From positions 1,240,001 to 1,304,000 of the forward strand of contig CP076040.1 of NCBI GenBank assembly GCA_014529675.2: a stretch of 64,000 nt of DNA. Reading direction: 5' to 3'. Position numbers and translations under genes: made by a program. The stretch's first letter is position 1, and every line of letters starts with the position of its first letter. This stretch comes from Opitutia bacterium ISCC 52 (GTDB lineage: Bacteria > Verrucomicrobiota > Verrucomicrobiia > Opitutales > UBA2995). Positions 26,198 through 40,162 of this stretch are shown piece by piece. The notes under the pieces were generated by a model, which saw only the letters and a program-made list of their open reading frames with translations, ran no database searches and was not told the DNA's origin.

Positions 26198-27646
26198 TTA
26201 AAGTCTTGGTGGATTAAATGGCGACGTTGGGACCTGCCCATTGACCGTTTTTCTTAGCTTTGCGCTCAGCTCTCGAATGGTTTTCGTATAAGCTGGGTTT
26301 GATGCTAAATTATTGAACTCGTTAGGGTCTTCAAAGTGATCATAAAGTTCCACTCCTTGCTGGCCTTCATTCCATTCGTTGTAACGCCAGCGATCGGTGC
26401 GAATGCTGGCACCCATGACAGGGAGGCCGTCACCTGGGCGGAGCACTTGGGTGAAAGCTTCGCCTTTCCATTTCTTATTAGGATTGTTGAGCAAGGGGAG
26501 CAGGCTTTTCCCTTCAGCGTCCTTTGGTGATTCCAATCCGCAAAGTTCTGCTATGGTTGGGTAGATATCTACAAACTCGACAATTTGTTTACTGGGCTTG
26601 CCGTTTCCTTTTTGGTTGGGGCTATAAATGATTAAGGGCGCCGAAGCTGATTCCTCAAACAGGCAACGTTTTTGCCAGATGCCATTATGTTCTCCCAGAT
26701 TATAGCCATGGTCACTCCAGAACGCGACAACCGTGTTATCTGCCAGTCCCAGCTCTTCCAAGGCGTCTAATAATCTTCCAACCTGTGCGTCCACAAAGCT
26801 TACATTGGCATAGTAAGCCTGTTTGGCTTTAAGGACATCTTCGATGGCCAGGTTGTAATTGGGGACCGGGTTGTTGTGGGCAAATGCGATTTTTGGGATG
26901 TCTTCTCGATCACCTTCCGGTGCGTAGGGTATTTTGATTTTTTCTATTGGGTAGAGGTCCCAATACTTTTTCGGAGCTACATACGGTGTGTGTGGGCGGA
27001 AAAATCCTGCGGCCAGGAAGAACGGCTTATCTTTATTTTCCTTCATCAGGCGAATAGCCTCCGTGGTTATCATTCCATCCGTTTGCTCCTCATCTGTTCC
27101 TTCTGCAGCCAGCCAACTCAACGCTGCACTGATTTGTCTATGCGGCTCCAGATTGGTGATGAGATGCTCTTCGTCTTTGTCTCGCCCTTTGGGGTTTACT
27201 ACCTGATTCCAAGAAGCGGGATCGTCTAAGCCATTGGTCCCTATTTGTCTGGGGACGCCATAGTGGTATATCTTGCCCACTCGCATGGACTTGTAACCGG
27301 CCTTCTGGAAAAGCTGGGGTAGGGTAACTGCGTTTGGAGCAGCATCTCGAAAGTGAACTTCCAGGTCGTAGACCTTGATCGTATCGGGCCGTAGACCGGT
27401 CATCAGCGATGCACGGGTAGGATTACAAAGGGGTATCTGGCAGTAAGCGTTGTCGAATCGAACTCCCATGTTTGATAGACGATCCAGATTTGGCGTTACA
27501 GCGATCGGATCTCCAAAGCAAGCGATTGAGCTGGTCAGGTCATCCGCGGCGATGAATAGAACGTTTAGTTTCTCTTCTTTAGCGGATAGGGCACCTGAGA
27601 ATACGGAAAGGAGAGTAAGAAAAAGAAATATAGTCAGTCGAACCAT
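26198..27646 (-). CDS. Exported sulfatase, iduronate-2-sulfatase-like
   Basis: 482 residues with a signal peptide ([22 protein letters not shown]). Metal ligands are in [10 protein letters not shown]. The formylglycine site is C74 in [13 protein letters not shown], with Thr in place of the usual Ser/Ala of C-x-S/A-x-R or C-x-P-S-R. Later motifs are GKIYHYG and [17 protein letters not shown] with the second Asp-His metal site. It needs oxidation of C74 to formylglycine; no maturation enzyme is in the window. Likely removes sulfate esters from a polysaccharide in the periplasm. A weak operator-like motif precedes it. Confidence 0.93.
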
Positions 27647-27710: not shown

Positions 27711-27728
27711 CAAGTGTTTAACTGAATT
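27711..27728. promoter_or_regulatory. Weak LacI-operator-like motif upstream of a sulfatase
   Basis: CAAGTGTTTAACTGAA lies in the 88-bp gap upstream of the 26198-27646 sulfatase. Its core AAGTGTTTAACT matches the reverse complement of the operator candidates at 33397 and 39010 (AACTGTTTAAGT) in 10 of 12 positions. Weaker than the other candidates. Confidence 0.3.
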
Positions 27729-27734
27729 TACAGT

Positions 27735-29183
27735 CTATTTCTTCCAGACCTCGCTCTGTTCGGTAATTGCTACATCCCACGGTTGATCGGGATTGGGATC
27801 GTAAATGGGATCATTGTCCCTCTCAGGAAAGGTGCTGATGAGGTCTGACATGCGAGCGAGTGCAGCTTGGGCCTCAGGATCGCTGCTTGTTATCAGATTC
27901 GTTTGTTCGTCAGGATCAGCCAATACATCGACCAGCTTCTCGGGCTCTTTCTTATGGCTCACATACAGCTTAAAGCGTTTCTCACGAATCACTCGGTCGC
28001 GAAAGGCATAGGCGTTCTCCACACCGTCTTCGGTGAGAGCTGCTTCGTTTCGACCGCCCATGCCAAGCATCCAACTCCGTTGGCTATCTTGGCTTTTGCC
28101 CAGAATGAGGTCGGCGAAGGATTTCCCGTCGTAGGTATAACCCTCTTGGAGCTTTCCGCCTCCGAGTTCCGCAAAAGTGGGTAGCAGATCTGTGACATCG
28201 ATGAGAGCATCTGTCTTCACGCCTTCAGGAACCAATCCCGGGCTGTTGACGATGAAGGGTACGCAGAGTCCTGGTTCAGTTGTACTGGCCTTTGCCCCTT
28301 TTACGGTTCGGCCATTTTGATGGCCGGTAATTTCGCCCGTGGTACCATTGTCAGTGGTCCAGATGATGATAGTGTTGTCGCGAATACCAAGGTCGTCCAA
28401 GGCTTGTACCAATTTTCCCAATACTTTGTCGGTGTAGCGAACCATGGCCTTGTGCTTATCCAGATCGGTTTCGACATCCCGTTCGTCTGGAGTTGTGACG
28501 AATGGAGTATGCGTGAGTACCATGGGGTAGTAGAGGAACATCGGGTCGTCTTTGTTCTTCTTCATGAAGTCGATGAGGAAGTCGACAAACATGGTTTCGC
28601 CGTACTCACCTTCACGGATGAAACTACCTTCTTTGGTATGAATGTAGGGATCCCAGAATCGTTCATCGCTGGGTGGATTATTGCCTTCGCCTCCGGTCCA
28701 CATGCAGTAGTCGTCAAAGCCAATTTCAATCATTGCTTCGGGTTGCACCCGGAAATCGTTAATCTGCCATTTGCCAGCAATGGCCGACTTGTAGCCCGCA
28801 TCTTTCATGACCATGGAAATGCAGGGATTGCGATTCCAGTCGTAATGGGCACCCCCTCCCCAGCGAGGAACGTCCCAATGGTTCACCCAGCCATGACGAT
28901 AGGGATATTGTCCGGTAAGAAATGAAAGTCTGGTAGGGGTGCACTGAGGCATGACATAGGCATTCGAGAACTGCATGCCTCCAGCGGCCAGTTGGTCGAT
29001 ATGGGGTGTTTCGATATTTTCACCACCGTAGGTTGATACCCATTCTTTACCTAAATCATCGACCAGGATAAACAGGATGTTAGGTTTGCTGGAAGGAGAA
29101 CTATTGCTTTCGGAGCAACCAACGAAAATCGATAGAAGCCCAGTTATGAGCGGAAAGAGAACGATAAGTTTAGTGTATTTCAT
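27735..29183 (-). CDS. Sulfatase lipoprotein (arylsulfatase A-like)
   Basis: 482 residues with a lipoprotein signal whose lipobox ends at C23 (SIFVGC), so it is membrane-anchored. Metal-binding FILVDDLGKEW, formylglycine site C81 in PQCTPTRLSFLTGQYP (again C-x-P-T-R), and IWTTDNGTTGEITGHQNGR for the second metal site. Substrate unknown. It sits 22 bp downstream of another sulfatase gene on the same strand. Confidence 0.93.
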   Translation of the reverse strand: MKYTKLIVLFPLITGLLSIFVGCSESNSSPSSKPNILFILVDDLGKEWVSTYGGENIETPHIDQLAAGGMQFSNAYVMPQCTPTRLSFLTGQYPYRHGWVNHWDVPRWGGGAHYDWNRNPCISMVMKDAGYKSAIAGKWQINDFRVQPEAMIEIGFDDYCMWTGGEGNNPPSDERFWDPYIHTKEGSFIREGEYGETMFVDFLIDFMKKNKDDPMFLYYPMVLTHTPFVTTPDERDVETDLDKHKAMVRYTDKVLGKLVQALDDLGIRDNTIIIWTTDNGTTGEITGHQNGRTVKGAKASTTEPGLCVPFIVNSPGLVPEGVKTDALIDVTDLLPTFAELGGGKLQEGYTYDGKSFADLILGKSQDSQRSWMLGMGGRNEAALTEDGVENAYAFRDRVIREKRFKLYVSHKKEPEKLVDVLADPDEQTNLITSSDPEAQAALARMSDLISTFPERDNDPIYDPNPDQPWDVAITEQSEVWKK

Positions 29184-29205: not shown

Positions 29206-30867
29206 TTACCAGATCTGGGAACGTCTTTTCAGGAGTTCAGGGTATTGGGCATCTAAATCTTTCACTTCCTGTTTGATGGAGAGCAGTTGTTGTTTTAGAT
29301 CTTCCGCAACTTTGGCGTAGGCTGGATCGTTGTAAACGTTTTGTTGTTCGTAAGGATCTTTTTCCATGTCGAACAGCTCCAGCCTAGCTGGAGTAGAAGC
29401 CGGTTTGGTGGCTCCCCAAGAGGAAACCTGGTGCAGGTTGGCTTCGTTAATTTCTTCACCGGGTCCATAGGCCCAGATTTCGTCCATGCGTGGATGGAGT
29501 GCCAATCCGTAATAAAAGATGAGTTTATATCGTTGGGTGCGCAGGGCGTAATGCGCTGGTATGTCGTGATGAGCACGATGCATCCAATAGCGATAGTAAG
29601 TGGATTGCCGCCAATCATCGGGTGTTTGCCCTCTCAGGTTTTGACGGAAAGAACGACCTTGCATGGCTGCGGGAGCTTTTACTCCGGCGAAATCTAGAAT
29701 GGTCGGGGCAAAGTCGACATTGTTGATGATGTCTTTGTTGATACTATTGGCTTCGATTTCTTTTGGGTAGCGGGCGATAAATGGCATGCGCATGGATTCT
29801 TCAAATGCCCAACGCTTATCCACGTGATCGTGTTCACCAAGCATCATGCCCTGGTCGCCGGTGTATATGATCAGGGTATCATCCTCCAAGCCTTCCGATT
29901 TAAGGTAGGCCAGAACCCGACCTACATTTTCATCAACTCCGGCGACGCATCGAAGATAGTCTTTCAAATACCTTTGGTAGGCTGCGCGAGTTTGTTCTTT
30001 CTTGGTCATGCCCGTGATGTCCAACGGACCACCTGGCCAAAAGTCGTTTTGCATGCGAGCTACCCGGTTTCGTATCTGATTGGTTGGACCCAAAGTGCTA
30101 CCGTAATTTCGTGAACCGTCGGAACGATCACTTTTATCTTCAAACAGGCTGTGGGGTTCAGGGATCTCGTCATCTGCATAGAGGTCGTTAAATCGGGGCG
30201 CATTTTCCCAGATGCCATGGGGCGCCTTGAAGTGACACATGAGGAAAAAGGGTTTGTCGTCGTCCCGTTGTTCCTTGAGCCACTTCAGTGTTTCATTGCC
30301 GATTACATCACTGGAATGGCCTTCGTAGGGCTCACCGCCCTCATTGTGGTCTTTCCAAGGTTTTCCTTTCTCTTTGAGAAGAGGGTTAAAGTAGAGGCCT
30401 TGACCGGGGAGGACTTTGTAGTAGTCAAAGCCGATCGGTTCAGAGTGTAGGTGCCATTTTCCTATGATGGCTGTTTCGTAACCCGCCTGTTGCAATTCCG
30501 CTGCTAGGTTGGGTTGGTGGTCGCGATCCCAAGTATCCACGAGGGTCATCAGTCCGTTTACGTGACTGTATTGACCGCTTAGGATAGACGCGCGGCTGGG
30601 CGTGCAAATGGAGTTGGTACAATAAACATTCTTGAGTAATATGCCTTCGTTGGCCAGTTGATCGATATTTGGGGTGGGGCAATATTCTTTCAGGTGACTC
30701 CCATAGCTGCCAATGGCCTGATAGGTATGGTCATCGGACATAATGAAAAGAATATTGGGCTGCGAGTCTTTTGCTTTGACTGATGGTCCCCAAGCTAATG
30801 CGAGACCGGTGAAGATACATAAAACCACCGAGATTGAATGTGGGGGAAAAGTACTTTTCATATTCAT
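29206..30867 (-). CDS. Exported sulfatase (GlcNAc-6-sulfatase-like)
   Basis: 553 residues; the signal region ends near VKAKDS. Metal site FIMSDDHTYQAIGSYG. Formylglycine site C88 in SICTPSRASILSGQYSHVNG, a full C-x-P-S-R motif, then KWHLHSEPIGFDYY and YTGDQGMMLGEHDHVDKRW. The long C-terminal region with YYRYWMHRAHHDIPAHYALR resembles heparan/N-acetylglucosamine-6-sulfatase relatives of bacteria. Two methionines (MNM) make the exact start ambiguous by two residues. First gene of the three-sulfatase run. Confidence 0.93.
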   Translation of the reverse strand: MNMKSTFPPHSISVVLCIFTGLALAWGPSVKAKDSQPNILFIMSDDHTYQAIGSYGSHLKEYCPTPNIDQLANEGILLKNVYCTNSICTPSRASILSGQYSHVNGLMTLVDTWDRDHQPNLAAELQQAGYETAIIGKWHLHSEPIGFDYYKVLPGQGLYFNPLLKEKGKPWKDHNEGGEPYEGHSSDVIGNETLKWLKEQRDDDKPFFLMCHFKAPHGIWENAPRFNDLYADDEIPEPHSLFEDKSDRSDGSRNYGSTLGPTNQIRNRVARMQNDFWPGGPLDITGMTKKEQTRAAYQRYLKDYLRCVAGVDENVGRVLAYLKSEGLEDDTLIIYTGDQGMMLGEHDHVDKRWAFEESMRMPFIARYPKEIEANSINKDIINNVDFAPTILDFAGVKAPAAMQGRSFRQNLRGQTPDDWRQSTYYRYWMHRAHHDIPAHYALRTQRYKLIFYYGLALHPRMDEIWAYGPGEEINEANLHQVSSWGATKPASTPARLELFDMEKDPYEQQNVYNDPAYAKVAEDLKQQLLSIKQEVKDLDAQYPELLKRRSQIW

Positions 30868-30979: not shown

Positions 30980-33259
30980 TTACAAATCGAAAGAGGCTGA
31001 TAACAGAAATGTGCGAGCTTCGTTGGTTGCCGCACGCGAACGGACGTAAAATACGTCGGTTGCGTTGTCGATGTTGAGGCCGAAAGTAACGGGTTGGTCA
31101 CCGATCATAGTTGGGTATCGTGCAAACAAGTTAACTTCGGTGTAACCGTCTTCCGTTACAAAGCGGTTGGCGATATTACCGAATTGCTGGATAGGGCCAT
31201 CTGCGTGAACCACACCACCACCGAAGCGGAGCCCTTCCATGGGTCCATCTTCAACCGTATAGTTTGTGAATAGTGAGAATCGGTGTGGTGTCGCACCTTC
31301 CAGGCGGAGGCCGGTTGCTACATCGCCTACTACTACTGCATCGATCCAGCTATAGGAGGCTACAATGTTCCAGTTTTCCGTTGGATTGTAGAACATTTCC
31401 AGCTCGATGCCTTCACTTTCGTCAGAGGTCACGGATTGATCGGACATAAAAGTGACTGGATTGAAGTCCCGTCGAACAACGTTGTCTTTTTGAATGTTGA
31501 ATGCCGCAATAGATCCACTGAGTCTCCCGTCAGCCAGGTCAATGAATTTGAATCCGACTTCAATGGCATCACTGGTTTGCGCGCCAATAAGTTCACCTGT
31601 ATCAGGGTTTGATCCACTTTGTGGTTCGAATGCATCAGCCATATTGGCAAAGAAGCTTACCGTTTCATTTATGCGATAGACACCGCCTAATTGAAAGTTC
31701 GTGTCACTGCCTTCGAGTGAAGCGTTTGGAAGACCTCCCAGTAAGGTGGATCTTTGGTCGAACTCAGTACGACGAATACCTGCCAGGATATTGAGGCGGT
31801 CTTCCATGAAATACATATTGTCTGTAGCATAGAAGGTATCGATGTCCGTATAGGTGCGGTCATTGTTGTTGGTACGAATACCAAAGGCTCTCAATTCTGC
31901 AGGGCTAGGCACATCGTCTTCCCAGATTTTCACACCGTTGAGAATATCATCTTGGTATAGAAATTGGCGGAATACTTTGCCGGTTCTTGCCTGGATATCT
32001 TCAAGGATTGCCTGTTCGTTCGCTCTAGCTCCACGTAAGCGGTAGCTGCCTTCTCCTCCTGCTGTTGTTTCGGCTTTGCGATAACCAATTAGAAGCTGGT
32101 GTCTCACCGCTCCGGTTTCGAAATCGATGATGTCATTGATCGTATGAACTTCGTCGCTGGATCTGCTTTGGTTTATGGTGTTATTGGCGTCAGATATCTT
32201 ATTGCCTGGGTCAGCAGAATTCGGACTGAAGGTATTGAATTCACGGAAACTAACAACCTGGTGTGTATCGTGGAAGGTATATGTGTATTGTAGGTTGTGT
32301 GTTTCACTGAATGAGTGGCGAAGGCCCATTGTGAGGAAGTTGTTATCGGAATCGAAAATATTCCCAGGTGTGGACGTTACGTATTCTTCAGGAATGAAAG
32401 AGTTGTTGTAGCGAGTGTTCGATTCATTGACTCCATCTACGTTGTCATCGGTGTCTCCGTCTCCATTCAAGTCGGTAGGGGTTCTTTCAAATGACCAGGT
32501 AGCCCGTTGAGTAGGAAATCCTTTCTGATGGTTATCTCCGAACATGAATGAACCTTGGGTTTTATCGGTAAAGTCGTAAGTGCCTGATACTCCGAGGAAA
32601 TTGGTTTCTTGGCCATCCACCCAGCGCCAACCATCGTGGTCTTTGTATTCAGTAAGAACACGCAAACCTAATTTGTCGTTCATTGCACGGATCGTGTAAT
32701 CCAGTTTCACTCCTACACGACTGTTACTACCCGCACTTAAGGTAATGTAACCACCAGCTTCTGCTTTCGGCTTTTTGGTGATGACATTAATGAGTCCTCC
32801 TGGATCCGATTGGCCATACAAAGTATTGGGACCTTTTACTACCTCTATCCGGTCGATGAGGTGGGGAGGAATGTAAAGTCCACCGGTAACACCATCAACC
32901 AACAGGTTCCGGTTACGGAAACCGCGGATGGAAAATGAAGATGGGCGAGTGGCGCCTAAATTGTTCCGCGTCGTTTGTGTAATGGATGTATTGTAATCCA
33001 AAGCCTCGGTGAAATCACCGATCAAGCTATCTTCGAGAAATTCCGAAGTGATAACGTTGATCGACATAGGCACGTTCATCAGCGATGTCCGCATACCTGT
33101 GCCGGAGATGGTTACCGTGGATGCATAACCGCCTTCTTCTTCTTCAACAGAGAATGGGTTAAGTTGATATATATCGTCCTCTTGGGCGAAGCCGGAAACC
33201 CAGCTGAGCGCTAGGGTGCTGGCACCAAGGCACAGCAGTTTATAGTAGTTTTTCATCAT
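30980..33259 (-). CDS. TonB-dependent outer-membrane receptor
   Basis: 759 residues with a signal peptide (to SGFA). The N-terminal plug domain has VTISGTGMRTSLMNVPMSIN, FSIRGFRNRNLLVDGV and VVKGPNTLYGQSDPGGLINV. A long beta-barrel ends in TFLLSASFDL. The family is often labelled siderophore receptor, but its position between three sulfatases and a sulfatase/fucosidase operon suggests oligosaccharide uptake. No SusD-like lipoprotein is adjacent. It is divergent from the second operon and has its own strong terminator and an operator candidate 138 bp upstream. Confidence 0.95.
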   Translation of the reverse strand: MMKNYYKLLCLGASTLALSWVSGFAQEDDIYQLNPFSVEEEEGGYASTVTISGTGMRTSLMNVPMSINVITSEFLEDSLIGDFTEALDYNTSITQTTRNNLGATRPSSFSIRGFRNRNLLVDGVTGGLYIPPHLIDRIEVVKGPNTLYGQSDPGGLINVITKKPKAEAGGYITLSAGSNSRVGVKLDYTIRAMNDKLGLRVLTEYKDHDGWRWVDGQETNFLGVSGTYDFTDKTQGSFMFGDNHQKGFPTQRATWSFERTPTDLNGDGDTDDNVDGVNESNTRYNNSFIPEEYVTSTPGNIFDSDNNFLTMGLRHSFSETHNLQYTYTFHDTHQVVSFREFNTFSPNSADPGNKISDANNTINQSRSSDEVHTINDIIDFETGAVRHQLLIGYRKAETTAGGEGSYRLRGARANEQAILEDIQARTGKVFRQFLYQDDILNGVKIWEDDVPSPAELRAFGIRTNNNDRTYTDIDTFYATDNMYFMEDRLNILAGIRRTEFDQRSTLLGGLPNASLEGSDTNFQLGGVYRINETVSFFANMADAFEPQSGSNPDTGELIGAQTSDAIEVGFKFIDLADGRLSGSIAAFNIQKDNVVRRDFNPVTFMSDQSVTSDESEGIELEMFYNPTENWNIVASYSWIDAVVVGDVATGLRLEGATPHRFSLFTNYTVEDGPMEGLRFGGGVVHADGPIQQFGNIANRFVTEDGYTEVNLFARYPTMIGDQPVTFGLNIDNATDVFYVRSRAATNEARTFLLSASFDL

Positions 33260-33396: not shown

Positions 33397-33412
33397 ACTT
33401 AAACAGTTAAGT
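33397..33412. promoter_or_regulatory. Candidate LacI-family operator, receptor side
   Basis: ACTTAAACAGTTAAGT: 6-bp arms ACTTAA/TTAAGT around ACAG. It matches the motif upstream of lacI (39010-39025) in 14 of 16 positions. It is 138 bp upstream of the receptor start. Confidence 0.65.
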
Positions 33413-33608
33413 TTCCTTAAATGCTGGGAAATATATGAGAAATAAAGAGGCGTCCGAGGTATTTAATGTAGGTTTTGGTGTTTGAAGTAGAATTTTTGAA
33501 TGGTCCCAATGTGGGGCTTACATTTGCCATTAATTTCCTTGATATGGAGGGATCTGGCGTAATCAGGTGCTGGATACGCTTTGCTCTAAGCGCTCAAAAG
33601 AGTGGGAA

Positions 33609-33624
33609 GCTTAAATGTTTAAAT
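33609..33624. promoter_or_regulatory. Candidate LacI-family operator, sulfatase side
   Basis: GCTTAAATGTTTAAAT matches the reverse complement of the motif at 33397 (ACTTAACTGTTTAAGT) in 13 of 16 positions. It is 84 bp upstream of the TTG start of the sulfatase. Confidence 0.55.
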
Positions 33625-33707
33625 AAGCCCAAACGCGTAAAAAGTAAAAGGTTCTCCTAGGGCTTGGTAGCTGACGGTACTCATTATATACTCCTCAGTG
33701 TTCTGCT

Positions 33708-35192
33708 TTGAATAAATACAATTTACTTATTATCACCCCCGACCAATTGCGCTCAGACTACCTGAGTAGCTTTGGTCATCCATCTATTGGAACTTCGCAC
33801 ATCGACCGATTAGCCAGCGAAGGTGTCCAATTTGATAACTGTTATTGTCAGTCACCTTTATGTGCCCCTAGTCGGGTCAGTTTTGCTACTAGTACCTATG
33901 TAGGAGAGCATGGTTGTCGTAACTATTGGTCGACGATTGAGCCACACGTGCCAAATCTCGTTTCGACGCTTAAAGGTGAAGGATATACGACCGGTATGTT
34001 CGGTAAGAACCATTTGTTTACTTATGACAAATTGGGTGAAATTTGGGATACCTGTAGCGAAGTGTGTCTGGGGAACTATGACAATCACCCAGACTACAAG
34101 CAGGCTTTCAGTTCTTTCGAGTTAGATCAGAATCATGAATACAATGTTACCGGTCGTCTGACAGACGAAGCGATCGAGTTTATGGGCGAAGTGGATAAGC
34201 CATTTATAAGTTGGATCAACTATCAGGATCCACACCCTGCATTTACCTGTCCCACGCTTTACAAGAATATGTTCGATCCGGCTGATATCGAATTGCCGGA
34301 GTCGTTTCTCAATTTCGATAAAGAAGGACAACCTCAGCGAAACGAAGTGTGGCGCAGACACTCGCAAATGGAAGATTGTAGTGAGGACGATATGCGCCAA
34401 GCGATTGCTACCTACATGGGGCAGATTCGCTATGTGGATGACTGCGTGGGGAAGTTGACTGAGTTTTTAGAGACGAAAGGCTTGGCCGATAACACGGTGG
34501 TCATGTTCTTTTCCGATCATGGGGAGTTGCTTGGTGACTTTGGAATGACTCACAAGCTGCCCGCCTTCTACGATTGCCTGACAAAGATTCCAGTTATCAT
34601 ACGCCACCCTGATGGTCGGTGGGCTGGTTCCCGCTTCGATGGGCTTGCAGAAGAAGTAGACTTAGTGCCTACGCTTTTAGAAATGCTTGGAGTGGAGGCA
34701 CCACCTACGATGGTGGGTCAATCCTGGGTGGAGGCGTTTAACGCAGGAAACACGAATGGAAAAGAGTCCATTCTTTCTGAGGCAGGGGGTGGGGCACCTA
34801 CCGTCAAAGAGCCGATTCCTGGGCATGTGATCAAAGCGCCTCAAATTCCAACCAGCTTCGGTCCAGGCGCCATGATTCGAAAAGGTGACTGGAAACTGAG
34901 CATCTATCACGATGATCAATGCGAGTTATATGATCTATCTGAGGATCCTGATGAACTGAATAATTTGTATGGAGTTGACGAATACGCAGCTATCCAGAAC
35001 GAATTAACCTTGGATCTGATGAAGCGTCTTCTTGGAGTGAAAGTGCGCGATGTCGGGCTGGAATGGCCTACAGAGAAGTACCCGATCGATGTTCGTTTTG
35101 AAGCGCTTCAGAAAAGGCATTTGGATCCATCAAATATTACGGGTTTGAAATCATCTTCCAGTGATATTTCTGTGTCCAAGAAATCAGGTTAA
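33708..35192 (+). CDS. Sulfatase without signal peptide
   Basis: 494 residues starting at TTG 33708 (MNKYNLLIITPDQLRSDYLS); no in-frame ATG lies upstream before a stop. Metal site TPDQLRSDYL. Formylglycine site C52 in SPLCAPSRVSFATS, C-x-P-S-R type but with ATS replacing the usual LTG. Second metal site VVMFFSDHGELLGDFGMTHK. There is no signal peptide or lipobox, so the enzyme appears cytoplasmic, unlike the other sulfatases here. It may desulfate imported mono- or oligosaccharides. It ends 25 bp before the fucosidase start. Confidence 0.9.
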   Translation: MNKYNLLIITPDQLRSDYLSSFGHPSIGTSHIDRLASEGVQFDNCYCQSPLCAPSRVSFATSTYVGEHGCRNYWSTIEPHVPNLVSTLKGEGYTTGMFGKNHLFTYDKLGEIWDTCSEVCLGNYDNHPDYKQAFSSFELDQNHEYNVTGRLTDEAIEFMGEVDKPFISWINYQDPHPAFTCPTLYKNMFDPADIELPESFLNFDKEGQPQRNEVWRRHSQMEDCSEDDMRQAIATYMGQIRYVDDCVGKLTEFLETKGLADNTVVMFFSDHGELLGDFGMTHKLPAFYDCLTKIPVIIRHPDGRWAGSRFDGLAEEVDLVPTLLEMLGVEAPPTMVGQSWVEAFNAGNTNGKESILSEAGGGAPTVKEPIPGHVIKAPQIPTSFGPGAMIRKGDWKLSIYHDDQCELYDLSEDPDELNNLYGVDEYAAIQNELTLDLMKRLLGVKVRDVGLEWPTEKYPIDVRFEALQKRHLDPSNITGLKSSSSDISVSKKSG

Positions 35193-35217
35193 TCTGATGA
35201 CTCCTATCTACTCTATC

Positions 35218-37047
35218 ATGAACCGTATTCTTCTTCTTTTTTCTTCCTTCTTAATAGTGCTCGCTATGAGCAGTGGCTGTCAAAAACAGGTAGAGCAGCA
35301 AGAGGAGGATTTATACGTTATGCCTGAACGTATGGAGGAATGGAATGACTGGCGGTTTGGAATGTTTATTCACTGGGGCGCCTGGTCTCAAACCGAGATT
35401 GGTTACATCTGGAAGATGGTTAATGAGGAGCCTCGCGAGATTGGCGAAACTCGTTTCGATCTCTACAAGACCTTTAATCCAAGCGAGTTTGATCCTAAGA
35501 AGTGGGCACGTGCTGCCAAAGAGGCTGGTATGAAATACGTGGTCTTTGTGACCAAGCATCATGATGGCTTTAATAACTACGACACACAGTTATCGGATTT
35601 AAAAAGTACCAATCCCGAGGTGCCTTACAGCTCCGACCCGAAGGCCGACCTTACCAAGGCAGTAGTGGATGCCTTTCGCGCAGAAGGATTGGCTATTGGT
35701 TTGTATTACTCTCATATAGATTGGTATCATGAGGACGCCCGTTATTTTTCACGTGACTATTGGGACTTTGATCCAAGCCGTATTGATTCGGACCCAGAAT
35801 CCTGGAAGCGCTACGTAGACTTTGAAAGAGGTCAAATCGAGGAGCTACTGACCAACTATGGTAAGATCGATATGCTCTGGTTCGATATTTCCTGGCCGTT
35901 TGCAGAAGGGGGTGAGTTTTCGCATCCACAGGTGGAGAAAGATGTGGAAGATCTCTTGCGTCTAATGAAGAAGCTACAACCGGACCTCATTTTTAATGAT
36001 CGAGGAACCGGAAAGTATGGTGGCTTTTACACGCCTGAGCAGCAGGTGCCCGTTGCGGGGCTGCCGGGGAATTGGGAATCCAACATTACTATAACCAACA
36101 ACCGTGGCTATTGGTACAAGGGTGAAAACGTCAGTGCCAAATCGAATAAAGAGCTTATTCGCATGCTGGTCGATATTGCGTCTAAGGGCGGCAACTTTTT
36201 GATGAATGTGGGGCCTCGTCCCGACGGTGAGCTGTCGCAAACGGAGTACGATGCCCTGGCGCGGGTCGGGGAGTGGATGTCAGTGAGCGGCGTGAGTATT
36301 TACGGTACTCGGAAAGGACAATTCCTTCAATTGGAGTGGGGAAAATCTACCACCAACGGTTCGACCATTTATCTGCACGTTTATGATTGGCCGGCGGATG
36401 GTCAGTTGAGAGTACCTGGTCTTTTAAACGAAGTCTCCAGATCCTATCTACTCGCAGATTCTAGCAAAACGCCACTTTCGGTAACTGCGGATGGGAAAGA
36501 CAAATTGATCACGCTGCCAAGCAGTCCTTCTGATCCCGTGGCGTCAGTGGTAGTTGTTGAAATAGATGGAGAGCCGGAAATAGATAATATATATCGGCAG
36601 CTGGCAAACGAACCAGTCGAGCTGGGCACCTACTTTGCTAATTTGCACAGCAATACTGCGAGCTACAATTTTGGTTGGGCTACTCGTAAAGGAAACTTCC
36701 TTCAGGATATCAAAAGCACTGCCGACAGGATTAGCTGGGAGGTCAGAATAAAAACTCCAGGTAGCTATCGGCTGGATTTGAAATACGCAACTCAGACTGA
36801 CCAGGCAGGTAGCGAGCTTTTCGTCGATGTCGCAGGCCAGACACTCCAACATAAGGTCGTTGGGACAGCCGATTGGACGGGCAATATTTTACAGGTGCAA
36901 CGTCAGGAAATGGATGAAGGGGAGAGGCATAATAACCTGTGGCTGTTCAAGGATTTTGAGCTAGGTGAAATCAAGTTTGAGACCGCCGGGACCTACACGC
37001 TTGTTATCAACCTGAGTCCATTGCTGCCGATTGCCTTATGTTCCTGA
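35218..37047 (+). CDS. GH29 alpha-L-fucosidase lipoprotein, C-terminal frameshift
   Basis: Retaining exo-fucosidase. A lipoprotein-like leader (MNRILLLFSSFLIVLAMSSGC) precedes a GH29 catalytic domain with MEEWNDWRFGMFIHWGAWSQ, FVTKHHDGF and the nucleophile D223 in MLWFDISWP. A C-terminal beta-sandwich follows. I start at ATG 35218 (a GTG at 35161 would overlap the sulfatase). The present frame ends LVINLSPLLPIALCS. Adding one base near 37010 instead gives KPESIAADCLMFLKSATLTPVR ending at 37076, a more natural C-terminus, so an A has probably been lost. The enzyme core is unaffected. Confidence 0.93.
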   Translation: MNRILLLFSSFLIVLAMSSGCQKQVEQQEEDLYVMPERMEEWNDWRFGMFIHWGAWSQTEIGYIWKMVNEEPREIGETRFDLYKTFNPSEFDPKKWARAAKEAGMKYVVFVTKHHDGFNNYDTQLSDLKSTNPEVPYSSDPKADLTKAVVDAFRAEGLAIGLYYSHIDWYHEDARYFSRDYWDFDPSRIDSDPESWKRYVDFERGQIEELLTNYGKIDMLWFDISWPFAEGGEFSHPQVEKDVEDLLRLMKKLQPDLIFNDRGTGKYGGFYTPEQQVPVAGLPGNWESNITITNNRGYWYKGENVSAKSNKELIRMLVDIASKGGNFLMNVGPRPDGELSQTEYDALARVGEWMSVSGVSIYGTRKGQFLQLEWGKSTTNGSTIYLHVYDWPADGQLRVPGLLNEVSRSYLLADSSKTPLSVTADGKDKLITLPSSPSDPVASVVVVEIDGEPEIDNIYRQLANEPVELGTYFANLHSNTASYNFGWATRKGNFLQDIKSTADRISWEVRIKTPGSYRLDLKYATQTDQAGSELFVDVAGQTLQHKVVGTADWTGNILQVQRQEMDEGERHNNLWLFKDFELGEIKFETAGTYTLVINLSPLLPIALCS

Positions 37048-37118
37048 AGTCTGCTACCTTGACGCCGGTTCGCTAGCCATCACATGCTGGCAATTCTCTT
37101 CTGCTATCCCAAAGGCCT

Positions 37119-38756
37119 ATGAAAATCCATATTATCGATTTCCTGATTATCCTCTTGTACTTTATCGGGATCATCTCGCTTGGTTTGTGGATATCGCGAA
37201 GGCAGGCTAAAGGGGGTAGGGAATTCTTCCTGGCTAATAATTCGATGAAGTGGCCTTTCATTGGTGCCTCCTTATTCGCTACCAATATTTCCAGTCAGCA
37301 ATTTGTTGGGCAAGCTGGTTTGGCCTTTTCTGTCGGGATCATTGCCGGTGGTTTTCAGATTGTTGGGGCGACCTGTTTTATCTTTCTTTCCGTCTTTTTC
37401 ATACGCACCTACATGGGGCTGCGTTTGTCAACTTCGCCCGAGTTTTTTGAGAAACGTTACAGTGGCCGTTGCCGAACCATTGTTTCGTTCATGAACCTGA
37501 TGATGATTATTCTGGGTAACATTGCTGCCGCTTTATATGCGGGCGCATTGGTGCTAACGAATCTTCTCGGGTGGGATACGGGCGAACATGCAGAGAAGCT
37601 TTATTGGTTGTCCATTTTCTTAATTGGGATTGCTGCAGGAACTTACACCTTAATGGGAGGGCTTAAGGCCGTCATCTATTGCGATTTTGTTCAAACAGCA
37701 GTCCTTGTTTCGGGAGGAGCTTTCCTTTTGATTTTCGGAATTAATGCGATCGGTGGCTGGGATACGTTGGTAGCAGCCATCGACGGAGATGGCCGACCCA
37801 TGTGGTCTTTGTACCGGCCTTGGGATCACGACTTTGGTTGGTTACCGATGCTTACCGGTGGATTGATTTTAGGAGTGCACGGCCACTGCACAGATCATGA
37901 CTACATTCAGAGAGCTTTATCCGCAGGTAGTCTTTATCATGCGAAGATGGGTGCGCTGTTTGCAGGGATTCTGAAGACCCTGGCGCTATTTGTAATTGCT
38001 GCTCCGGGAGTCGTGGCGGCTCAATACTTTCAAGGTCAAAATACCGGAGTCATCGACAATGCTTATGTGAGCCTGCTTACGAGTGTGATGCCGATTGGTT
38101 TTCTTGGACTTTGCTTAGCGGGTTTACTCGCTGCGATCATGTCCAGTGTTGATTCTGGGCTTTGTGCCTGTGGCTCTCTCTTGGCCTACGACTTTTTTGC
38201 CAAGATCAAGAAAAATGCGACTGAACAGGAGCTGTTAAAGAAAGGGCGAATCATCATGATCGTTCTGTTGATCGCCTGTATGTTTATCGCGCCCTATATT
38301 CGTAATTTCAAAGGGCTCTTTAATTACCTGTTGGCGGTCTGGGCCTTTCTGGCTCCGGGGGTGTTCGTTACCGTGCTCTTTGGGTTGTTTTATAAAAAAT
38401 CTACTGAGAAGGCTGCCTTCTATACTTTGGTGCTTGGTTGTGTTCTAGGCTTCGCTGCTTTCTGCGTTCTAAGTCTGCCAGGTCTTGAAGGAGTAAAGAA
38501 TAGCCTGCCTGCCTTTTATCAGAACAAGCTCAATCTCTCTCCTGTAATCACAGCACTCTGTGCATTGACCATGTATTTGGTTAGCAATTACGGCGGAAGA
38601 ACCGAGCAAGACTATACCAACTTACTTCAAGTGAAGAACCTGTCCGAAGACTTAACCATGAGCGATGAGGAGACAAAAAAATACCGTCGCTTCATGGTTG
38701 TGCTGATCGGCTTTCTTCTAGTCGTAATTGCCTGCTTCTCGCCGCTGTTTTTTTAG
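37119..38756 (+). CDS. Sodium:solute symporter (SSS/SGLT family)
   Basis: 545-residue inner-membrane transporter with about 13-14 helices. It begins IIDFLIILLYFIGIISLGLW and has the SGLT-type stretch GREFFLANNSMKWPFIGASLFATNISSQQFVG, the GTYTLMGGLKAVIYCDFVQT block, and AAIMSSVDSGLCACGSLLAYDFF. Family members import sugars with Na+. Its place just after an alpha-L-fucosidase suggests fucose or another released sugar as substrate. A hairpin follows the stop. Confidence 0.93.
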   Translation: MKIHIIDFLIILLYFIGIISLGLWISRRQAKGGREFFLANNSMKWPFIGASLFATNISSQQFVGQAGLAFSVGIIAGGFQIVGATCFIFLSVFFIRTYMGLRLSTSPEFFEKRYSGRCRTIVSFMNLMMIILGNIAAALYAGALVLTNLLGWDTGEHAEKLYWLSIFLIGIAAGTYTLMGGLKAVIYCDFVQTAVLVSGGAFLLIFGINAIGGWDTLVAAIDGDGRPMWSLYRPWDHDFGWLPMLTGGLILGVHGHCTDHDYIQRALSAGSLYHAKMGALFAGILKTLALFVIAAPGVVAAQYFQGQNTGVIDNAYVSLLTSVMPIGFLGLCLAGLLAAIMSSVDSGLCACGSLLAYDFFAKIKKNATEQELLKKGRIIMIVLLIACMFIAPYIRNFKGLFNYLLAVWAFLAPGVFVTVLFGLFYKKSTEKAAFYTLVLGCVLGFAAFCVLSLPGLEGVKNSLPAFYQNKLNLSPVITALCALTMYLVSNYGGRTEQDYTNLLQVKNLSEDLTMSDEETKKYRRFMVVLIGFLLVVIACFSPLFF

Positions 38757-38784
38757 GAATGGGATGAAGTTTTAATCGTAGGGC

Positions 38785-38800
38785 TCGATGCTTGCATCGA
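38785..38800. terminator. Hairpin after the symporter gene
   Basis: TCGATGC-TT-GCATCGA is a 7-bp stem with a 2-nt loop (probably 4 nt in practice), 28 bp after the symporter stop. There is no clear T-run, so it may belong to the repeat element next to it rather than being a terminator. Confidence 0.4.
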
Positions 38801-38847
38801 TGCCTGTCTTGGTCGTTTGGATGTCTTCGAGGGATTTTTCTTTCTTA

Positions 38848-38916
38848 GGTAGGGCGGGATCGCCGAGCCCGCCGTTGGTGAAAGAGCTTCGGACGGCTCG
38901 GCGATCCGTCCCTACC
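38848..38916. repeat. REP-like inverted repeat pair
   Basis: Two 26-bp arms (38848-38873 and 38891-38916) are inverted copies of each other with about four mismatches. Both contain GGATCGCCGAGCC and end in GGTAGGG/CCCTACC. Each arm is itself partly palindromic. The layout of two REP-type units facing each other with a short spacer resembles REPIN elements mobilised by RAYT transposases. The 330-bp gap 38757-39085 holds no gene. Confidence 0.65.
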
Positions 38917-39009
38917 CAAAACCTATATTGTATAGAACACGCTCATTGAGTTGTTCGGATCAAAGATTCGGAAAAGATGTGTATAAGGTCCTAGCAAGAT
39001 GCCTGTGCT

Positions 39010-39025
39010 ACTTTAACAATTAAGT
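39010..39025. promoter_or_regulatory. Candidate operator upstream of lacI (autoregulation)
   Basis: ACTTTAACAATTAAGT, 61 bp before the GTG start of the LacI-type gene. It is 14/16 identical to the motif at 33397. Confidence 0.65.
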
Positions 39026-39085
39026 AATTTAGTTGTTTCAGCTTGTACTATCTTCACACTGCTGGAGAACATTACGAACTACTCT

Positions 39086-40162
39086 GTGAAGAACTCTCCC
39101 CAAAGAGTGCGACTAAAGGATATTGCGGAAAAGGCTGATTTGAGCGTCGCCGCAGTTTCCATGGCACTGAAAAACCACCGGTCTCTGCCCACCGACACGA
39201 TCGACAGAGTAAAGGCTTTGGCCGATGAAATGGGCTATGCGCCCGACCCTGCTTTATCTGCTCTGGCCGCCCATAGGAGTCGCTTGCGTGTCACAAAAGA
39301 CTTTTCGGTGATTGGCTTGGTATCGAACTGGTCAAGCGAAGATGGCTGGAGTCAATTGCCCAGTGCTCAGGAGGTCATAGAAGGTGCCAAGGCTCGTGCT
39401 CTTGAGTTGGGCTTCACCATCCATCATATGTGGTCGAAGTCTGAAAATCTCTCTCCTTCTCGATTTGATCAGATACTTCAGGCCCGTGGAATTCGTGGTC
39501 TTATCTTGGCCCCCTTTGAAGATCCGGAAGATCGCCTTGAATTTGATTGGAATCAGTACTCGGTGGTGACTGTCGAGAAGCCCTTTAACTATACGCACTT
39601 TCACCATATTATTCAGAATCATTACTCCGACCTATTGTTGGCCTGGCAAAAGATTCGTGAGAGAGGGTATCAGCGAATTGGGCTTGTTGTGCGCGAAGAT
39701 TTATCAAATCGATGGGGGCATCAGTGGGAGTCTGCTCACAGCTTGGCCCAGTTTTCCGCCAATACGCGGGAAGAGACCATTCCTACGCTGCAATTGAAAG
39801 GAACCGAGAAAGATGAACACACGAATATGGTGAAGTCCTGGCTTCAGCTTTTTAAACCTGAAGCAGTGATCAGTCGCTGCGATTGTTTCTTTGAAGCTAC
39901 AACTGATCTAGGCCTTAAAATTCCAGATGATATAGGGTACGTCAGTCTGAATGTCACGGATGATGTCGAAGGCGTTTCAGGGATTCATCAACATCGAGAT
40001 TTGATGGGTGCAACGGCGGTCGATGTTTTAAATAGTCTGCTCCAGCGAAATTTCCGAGGAGAACACGAAGTGTCTGTGGGCACTCAAGTGGATGGTTCCT
40101 GGAAAGATGGAAATACGTTACTCCATCAATTTTCGATTCAATCAGATCATGCGACTAGCTAA
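39086..40162 (+). CDS. LacI-family transcriptional regulator
   Basis: 358 residues from a GTG start. The N-terminal LacI helix-turn-helix and hinge helix (VRLKDIAEKADLSVAAVSMA and LKNHRSLPTDTIDRVKALAD) are followed by a periplasmic-binding-protein-like effector domain (FSVIGLVSNWSSEDGWSQLP to DDIGYVSLNVTDDVEGVSGI). It is probably the sugar-responsive repressor of the neighbouring receptor, sulfatase and fucosidase genes; related 16-bp motifs occur upstream of those genes and of lacI itself. The next gene starts inside its 3' end. Confidence 0.92.
   Translation: MKNSPQRVRLKDIAEKADLSVAAVSMALKNHRSLPTDTIDRVKALADEMGYAPDPALSALAAHRSRLRVTKDFSVIGLVSNWSSEDGWSQLPSAQEVIEGAKARALELGFTIHHMWSKSENLSPSRFDQILQARGIRGLILAPFEDPEDRLEFDWNQYSVVTVEKPFNYTHFHHIIQNHYSDLLLAWQKIRERGYQRIGLVVREDLSNRWGHQWESAHSLAQFSANTREETIPTLQLKGTEKDEHTNMVKSWLQLFKPEAVISRCDCFFEATTDLGLKIPDDIGYVSLNVTDDVEGVSGIHQHRDLMGATAVDVLNSLLQRNFRGEHEVSVGTQVDGSWKDGNTLLHQFSIQSDHATS

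Follow-up and report, generated by a model that had tools for sequence, protein, structure and literature searches.

A 16-nt palindrome conserved with a LacI-family regulator is a putative operator in a verrucomicrobial sulfatase-fucosidase locus

Verrucomicrobiota carry many sulfatases and have been credited with degrading sulfated algal sugars, and PUL-like clusters of GH29 enzymes, sulfatases and transporters have been described in Puniceicoccaceae and Akkermansiaceae (ISME J 2021, PMC8857213). The regulatory layer of these clusters is not treated in the main text of that study, in which "LacI", "regulator" and "transcription factor" have 0 occurrences as word starts, and we found little on how Verrucomicrobiota switch their sulfatase genes on. 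The locus analysed here combines GH29, sulfatase and transporter genes in a similar way and carries a lacI-type gene, raising the question of whether the inverted repeats in front of its genes are operators of the adjacent LacI-family protein. It lies in a 64,000-nt stretch (the window; G000:C1:1240001-1304000) of the single-contig, 4.8-Mb genome of Opitutia bacterium ISCC 52 (G000) and has the following features:

26198..27646, minus strand: sulfatase A (PF00884), possibly in the receptor transcription unit
27735..29183, minus strand: sulfatase B (PF00884), probably in the receptor transcription unit
29206..30867, minus strand: sulfatase C (PF00884), probably in the receptor transcription unit
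30980..33259, minus strand: TonB-dependent receptor (PF00593, PF07715), predicted target via O1
33397..33412, plus strand: O1, ACTTAAACAGTTAAGT, upstream of the receptor
33609..33624, minus strand: O2, ATTTAAACATTTAAGC, upstream of sulfatase D
33708..35192, plus strand: sulfatase D (PF00884), predicted target via O2
35161..37047, plus strand: alpha-L-fucosidase family (GH29-type) protein (PF01120)
37119..38756, plus strand: sodium:solute symporter (PF00474), last gene ahead of O3 and lacI
39010..39025, plus strand: O3, ACTTTAACAATTAAGT, upstream of lacI
39086..40162, plus strand: LacI-family regulator, 358 aa, with a helix-turn-helix (HTH) and a periplasmic-binding-like sensor domain (Pfam)

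Three palindromes and a LacI-family regulator

A 16-nt imperfect palindrome precedes the receptor, sulfatase D and lacI genes and is conserved in these positions, making it a putative operator. The three copies had been picked out in a sequence-only reading at 33397, 33609 and 39010, and we found each of them there, on the strand given. That reading had called them near-identical inverted repeats; inverted repeats they are, while "near-identical" is slightly too strong, the 33609 site differing from the pattern at two positions. Its distances to the genes (138, 84 and 61 bp) likewise place the sites correctly and are each one too high: 137 bases separate O1 from the receptor start codon, 83 separate O2 from that of sulfatase D and 60 separate O3 from that of lacI. 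O1 and O2 are spaced 212 bp apart. With up to three mismatches allowed, the window holds six matches (one site being counted on both strands) against 1.4 expected, a number reached in one of 100 shuffles. A weaker copy proposed at 27711, before another sulfatase gene, did not hold up: the best local position, 27708, in an 88-bp gap with co-oriented sulfatase genes on either side, scores 4.6 compared with 17.7–21.9 for the real sites, and it was dropped from the regulon as noise. A weaker site, ATTTAGTTGTTTCAGC (score 12.2), occupies 39027–39042, its start offset by 17 bp from that of O3, and also occurs in G007.

The regulator has the N-terminal LacI HTH (PF00356, 33.9 bits; cut-off 27) and the periplasmic-binding-like sensor domain (PF13377, 36.4 bits; cut-off 26.5) of the LacI family. 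It scored far below the cut-offs of all 14 NCBIfam equivalog families listed, among them PurR, RbsR, GntR, Cra and GalS. Escherichia coli PurR is its best-scoring relative of solved structure, aligning over residues 10–317 with the same domain plan, but with an E-value no better than about 1e-8, and the PurR equivalog model gives it 45, far short of the cut-off of 501. By eye, no tetramerisation tail is apparent at the C-terminus.

Among the genes of the locus, sulfatase C is probably co-transcribed with the receptor gene, as inferred from their shared strand and the 112-bp gap between them, and sulfatase B stays beside the receptor gene in five other genomes (G235, G211, G243, G378 and G004). 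Matrix scoring of the region upstream of sulfatase A revealed no credible operator of its own. Sulfatase D has no obvious signal peptide, as judged by eye; within family f13, genus g83 retains it together with the operators. The symporter has relatives of about 75% identity in another family. A first look at a sulfatase search of the whole G000 genome gave 352 candidate places, which hints at a very large set.

Frequency in the genome and conservation in the genus

Across the 4.8 Mb of the genome, the pattern ACTTWAACANTTAAGT matches exactly at two positions, both within this locus, and with up to two mismatches at 14, the third site among them. Its reversed control gave 26 matches at two mismatches, so at that stringency the motif is not enriched genome-wide. 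A second consensus, with one mismatch allowed, gave 20 matches in G000 compared with 10 for its control, and 83 compared with 97 when summed over eight genomes of the same family. Background frequency across the genome had been named in the sequence-only reading as evidence that would count against its proposal; it is what we found for lax matches, while exact matches lie almost only at the locus. We therefore rejected a genome-wide regulon, the lax matches being at background (14 versus 26; 83 versus 97). The count in G000 is what speaks for a chance resemblance among AT-rich inverted repeats, as the reversed control is as common as the motif at two mismatches. Set against this is the clustering of three matches (up to two mismatches) within 5.6 kb, with a Poisson P of about 3.5e-7 against the 11 other matches; together with the result for lacI homologues outside the genus (see below), it makes chance an extremely improbable explanation.

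Eight of the 11 other matches lie inside open reading frames and three are intergenic (1,009,470; 615,721; 4,164,977). The first of these, at G000:C1:1009470-1009485 (L106:9471-9486) and hence outside the window, constitutes a fourth site in the genome. It is flanked on one side by a sulfatase gene and on the other by a divergently oriented SDR gene with a receptor gene behind it, and is kept in G007 (sulfatase 95% identical) and G004 (79%) within differing flanking DNA. No lacI gene was seen in the stretch around it. As judged from sequence, this sulfatase/SDR promoter would be a better candidate for an extra regulon member than the 27711 position. The intergenic matches at G000:C1:615721 and 4164977 score 18.2 and 16.9. 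Five further stretches were inspected: in four (L117, L118, L119 and L120), strong sites occur only in unrelated open reading frames or at their edges, and the fifth, L116, contains the 615,721 site. A site scoring 20.6 in G005 (L108:9406), before a YidC-type gene, was taken as background, and some good-looking sites surely are background.

Within the genus, all three sites are found in the same places in G007 (lacI 94% identical) and G005 (75%), with O1–O2 spacings of 202 and 201 bp, respectively. In G005, the intergenic DNA upstream around O3 aligns poorly, and the receptor gene is not seen because the contig begins just beyond O1. G004 has two receptor genes, each preceded by a pair of sites, with spacings of 180 and 200 bp; a search of this genome, which is 75% complete, gave no lacI match at 1e-40. 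G006 has no close lacI orthologue, only a paralogue of the type described below. A decayed locus is seen in G003 (L034:13214-15934), where a lacI remnant lacking about 60 N-terminal residues and containing stops adjoins a truncated sulfatase C; the stretch, fetched to the contig end, contains no match to the receptor, sulfatase D, fucosidase or symporter.

The motif across the order

For a comparison beyond the genus, a matrix was built from the seven distinct sites of G000, G007 and G005, that is, from the window's genus only, and used to score the 250 bp ahead of each of 64 lacI-like genes; a score of at least 12 was counted as a site and the three training rows were excluded. Of the 41 non-training homologues with 43% identity or more, 23 have such a site upstream. 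Matrices with permuted columns equalled the score in none of 200 trials for 22 of these 23 rows and in one of 200 for the remaining row, an out-of-genus outcome that argues against chance. Among homologues below 43% identity, a set that includes G464b at 42.9%, one of 20 has a site (G006 L026; 29% identity, score 12.1). Upstream conservation at orthologues, on which the sequence-only reading had staked its proposal, is thus borne out, with the motif found ahead of lacI homologues from several families within the order.

Eighteen of the 41 rows have no site of 12 at lacI. Six belong to a paralogue group, and in two, G322 and G375, lacI directly follows the symporter gene; the other ten are unexplained (G381, G382, G470, G235b, G376, G464, G540, G344, G423 and G318). 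On a lacI tree of 63 of the 64 rows (G000p was omitted for length), the operator label requires six changes, compared with a mean of 20.6 after shuffling; because six are needed, the operator-bearing lacI genes do not form one clean clade.

The paralogue group bears on the identity of the binding protein. The sites might be LacI-type operators that are bound mainly by another regulator, for instance the paralogue of 55% identity, under shared or swapped control. Such a paralogue is indeed encoded in the same genome, at 3,279,955, the tree joins its group to the window's lacI as sisters (weak support, 90/65), and the block of G322 contains a second LacI-family gene of a different kind. The motif, by contrast, goes with lacI genes of the window-regulator type (P0001-type) across families, and no site of 12 was found upstream of the paralogue gene in any of the six rows. 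Three of them (L036, L037 and L112) instead have TTTGAAACAGTTCAAT or a one-base variant upstream, which suggests, at the level of sequence, that specificity may have changed after a lacI duplication. We thus regard control mainly by another regulator as quite unlikely, and binding by the adjacent LacI-family protein as the preferred reading.

The motif is also conserved before neighbouring receptor and sulfatase genes in other genomes. Five genomes of genus g83 in family f13 (G235, G211, G243, G373 and G378) have the block of receptor, sulfatase D, fucosidase (not in every case), symporter and lacI genes again, with sites both in the divergon between receptor and sulfatase genes and ahead of lacI. 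In other f13 genera, sites were found before lacI genes, receptor genes, sulfatase genes and one fucosidase gene. In several genomes, predicted operators therefore precede genes for sulfatases, fucosidase and receptors, although this survey of 30 loci is descriptive, since the loci were picked for carrying or adjoining sites.

Whole-genome scans for exact consensus matches inform only on confinement to the locus and on the controls, because the genomes were chosen post hoc and the patterns fitted; with that scope, six genomes yielded four distinct positions in three of the six, all at the locus, with one forward and one reverse match of the reversed control in G378, and eight genomes of another family yielded 11 positions, with matches in all eight and none for the reversed control. 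Nine of these 11 positions lie at the lacI locus and two before another TonB-receptor gene. Conserved core-promoter elements or other AT-rich elements would also be expected in promoter regions, where the sites indeed lie, and in this genus the sites are AT-rich. Yet they are palindromic and recur in loci of 59–68% GC, and in the scanned genomes nearly all exact-consensus matches fall at the lacI locus, a restriction not expected of a general promoter element. This explanation is accordingly very unlikely compared with operators of the adjacent regulator.

The two exact-consensus positions away from the lacI locus are strong sites 51 bp apart in G326 (C4:66842-66908; L183:1501-1567), before a TonB-receptor gene (plug domain) on the contig that also carries lacI, at a distance of 57 kb. 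In G360, two loci have an orthologous sulfatase D and no P0001-type lacI in the fetched stretch, and no site of at least 11 was found at either. A different LacI-family gene stands beside sulfatase D at one of the two G360 loci (L166:5174-6196), and another stands between receptor and sulfatase D in G322 (L068:2892-3935), where the P0001-type lacI is also present. These genes may reflect regulator turnover.

Mode of control and operator form

The 16-bp palindromes are very probably operators of the LacI-family protein encoded beside them. Many of its homologues in the order share the motif, and we thus propose a local, autoregulated repressor regulon. Without ligand, a dimer of the regulator would bind O1, O2 and O3, as we infer from LacI-family biology. 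The bound dimer would repress the receptor-sulfatase unit on the minus strand, the sulfatase-fucosidase-symporter unit on the plus strand and its own lacI gene, and a ligand, probably a small sugar freed from the glycan, would release it. The substrate is probably a sulfated, fucose-containing glycan. The sequence-only reading had arrived at much the same picture of LacI operators, autoregulation and a sulfated-glycan regulon, which gains support from the sites before lacI homologues and before receptor and sulfatase genes.

The direction of control might also be the opposite at O1 and O2, with the regulator activating rather than repressing the divergent genes. In favour of this, O1 lies 137 bp from the receptor start codon, and a scan for sigma-70-type promoters in the divergent region found no more than about the number expected by chance and no hexamers overlapping O1 or O2; the same scan found none before lacI. 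Local LacI-family regulators of sugar genes, on the other hand, are mostly repressors, the distance from O3 to lacI is 60 bp, and many f13 genomes have a site abutting lacI. We thus consider activation unlikely and retain repression.

The proposed regulon would belong to a known LacI-family type. Comparative genomics has assigned local LacI-family regulons mostly to sugar catabolism, with operators that are even palindromes of 16–22 nt, mostly 30–140 bp upstream, and with double sites in divergons whose intersite distances peak at multiples of the helical repeat, read as cooperative binding (Ravcheev et al. 2014, PMC4052901). Even palindromes upstream and a double site in a divergon are found here too. 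The seven phyla named in the text of that study do not include Verrucomicrobiota, a term with 0 occurrences there. No verrucomicrobial LacI operator was found in the open-licence PMC literature, an absence that is weak since the search covered that literature only. A defined motif that is linked to a single regulator and maintained between families provides a directly testable operator and a basis for classing sulfatase loci by common control; a promoter bearing it could serve as a reporter for finding the inducing sugar.

The consensus is approximately ACTKAAnCRnTTMAGT, and the symmetrised half-site over gene-proximal sites is A-C-T-(T/G)-A-A-N-C. CA/TG is the centre of each of the 13 sites that lie between genes at the locus in the window's genus. 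These sites do not show the typical, though not required, central CG pair of LacI operators; they represent a minority case in Ravcheev et al. (PMC4052901), in whose text 1173 of 1303 regulators considered have the central CG, 49 differ and 29 are degenerate. CG is the centre of most listed f13 sites and of all those listed from genera g14, g78, g87, g89 and g97.

The asymmetric CA centre gives each site a direction. In nine of nine readable pairs, the CA centres of the receptor and sulfatase sites face each other across the divergon, and in seven of seven CA-type cases the lacI site has CA on the sense strand; these orientations are partly inherited and hence not independent. Thinned by hand to one value per clade and promoter, the spacings of paired sites are 212, 201, 180, 125, 73, 54, 51, 33 and 30 bp; with a helical repeat of 10.5 bp, none of them departs from an integral number of turns by more than 0.25 turn (p = 0.011 for eight values and 0.012 for nine). 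Adding two weaker pairs, of which the 52-bp pair fits and the 46-bp pair does not, gave p = 0.020, and taking one value for each of five groups gave p = 0.13. With rule-based extraction at the same helical repeat, p was 0.015 at score 9 (18 pairs), 0.04 at scores 10 and 11 (14 pairs, in which two 17-bp neighbour pairs misfit) and 0.005 at score 13 (10 pairs). Since p ranges from 0.005 to 0.13 depending on the set, helical phasing is suggestive only. As a tentative proposal, which we put forward with less than even confidence, paired polar operators may stay on the same face of the helix despite a drift from 30 to 212 bp, with the regulator looping or pairing cooperatively across the divergent promoters; looping or cooperation between paired operators would be a suggestive reading of these spacings.

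The E. coli Cra/FruR operator is TGAAWCGNTTCA-like, and f13 sites such as ACTGAATCGCTTAAGT presumably resemble it. Cra/FruR nevertheless differs from the regulator described here in controlling another gene set, and the catabolite repressor/activator model scores the latter at 20.7 against a cut-off of 385.
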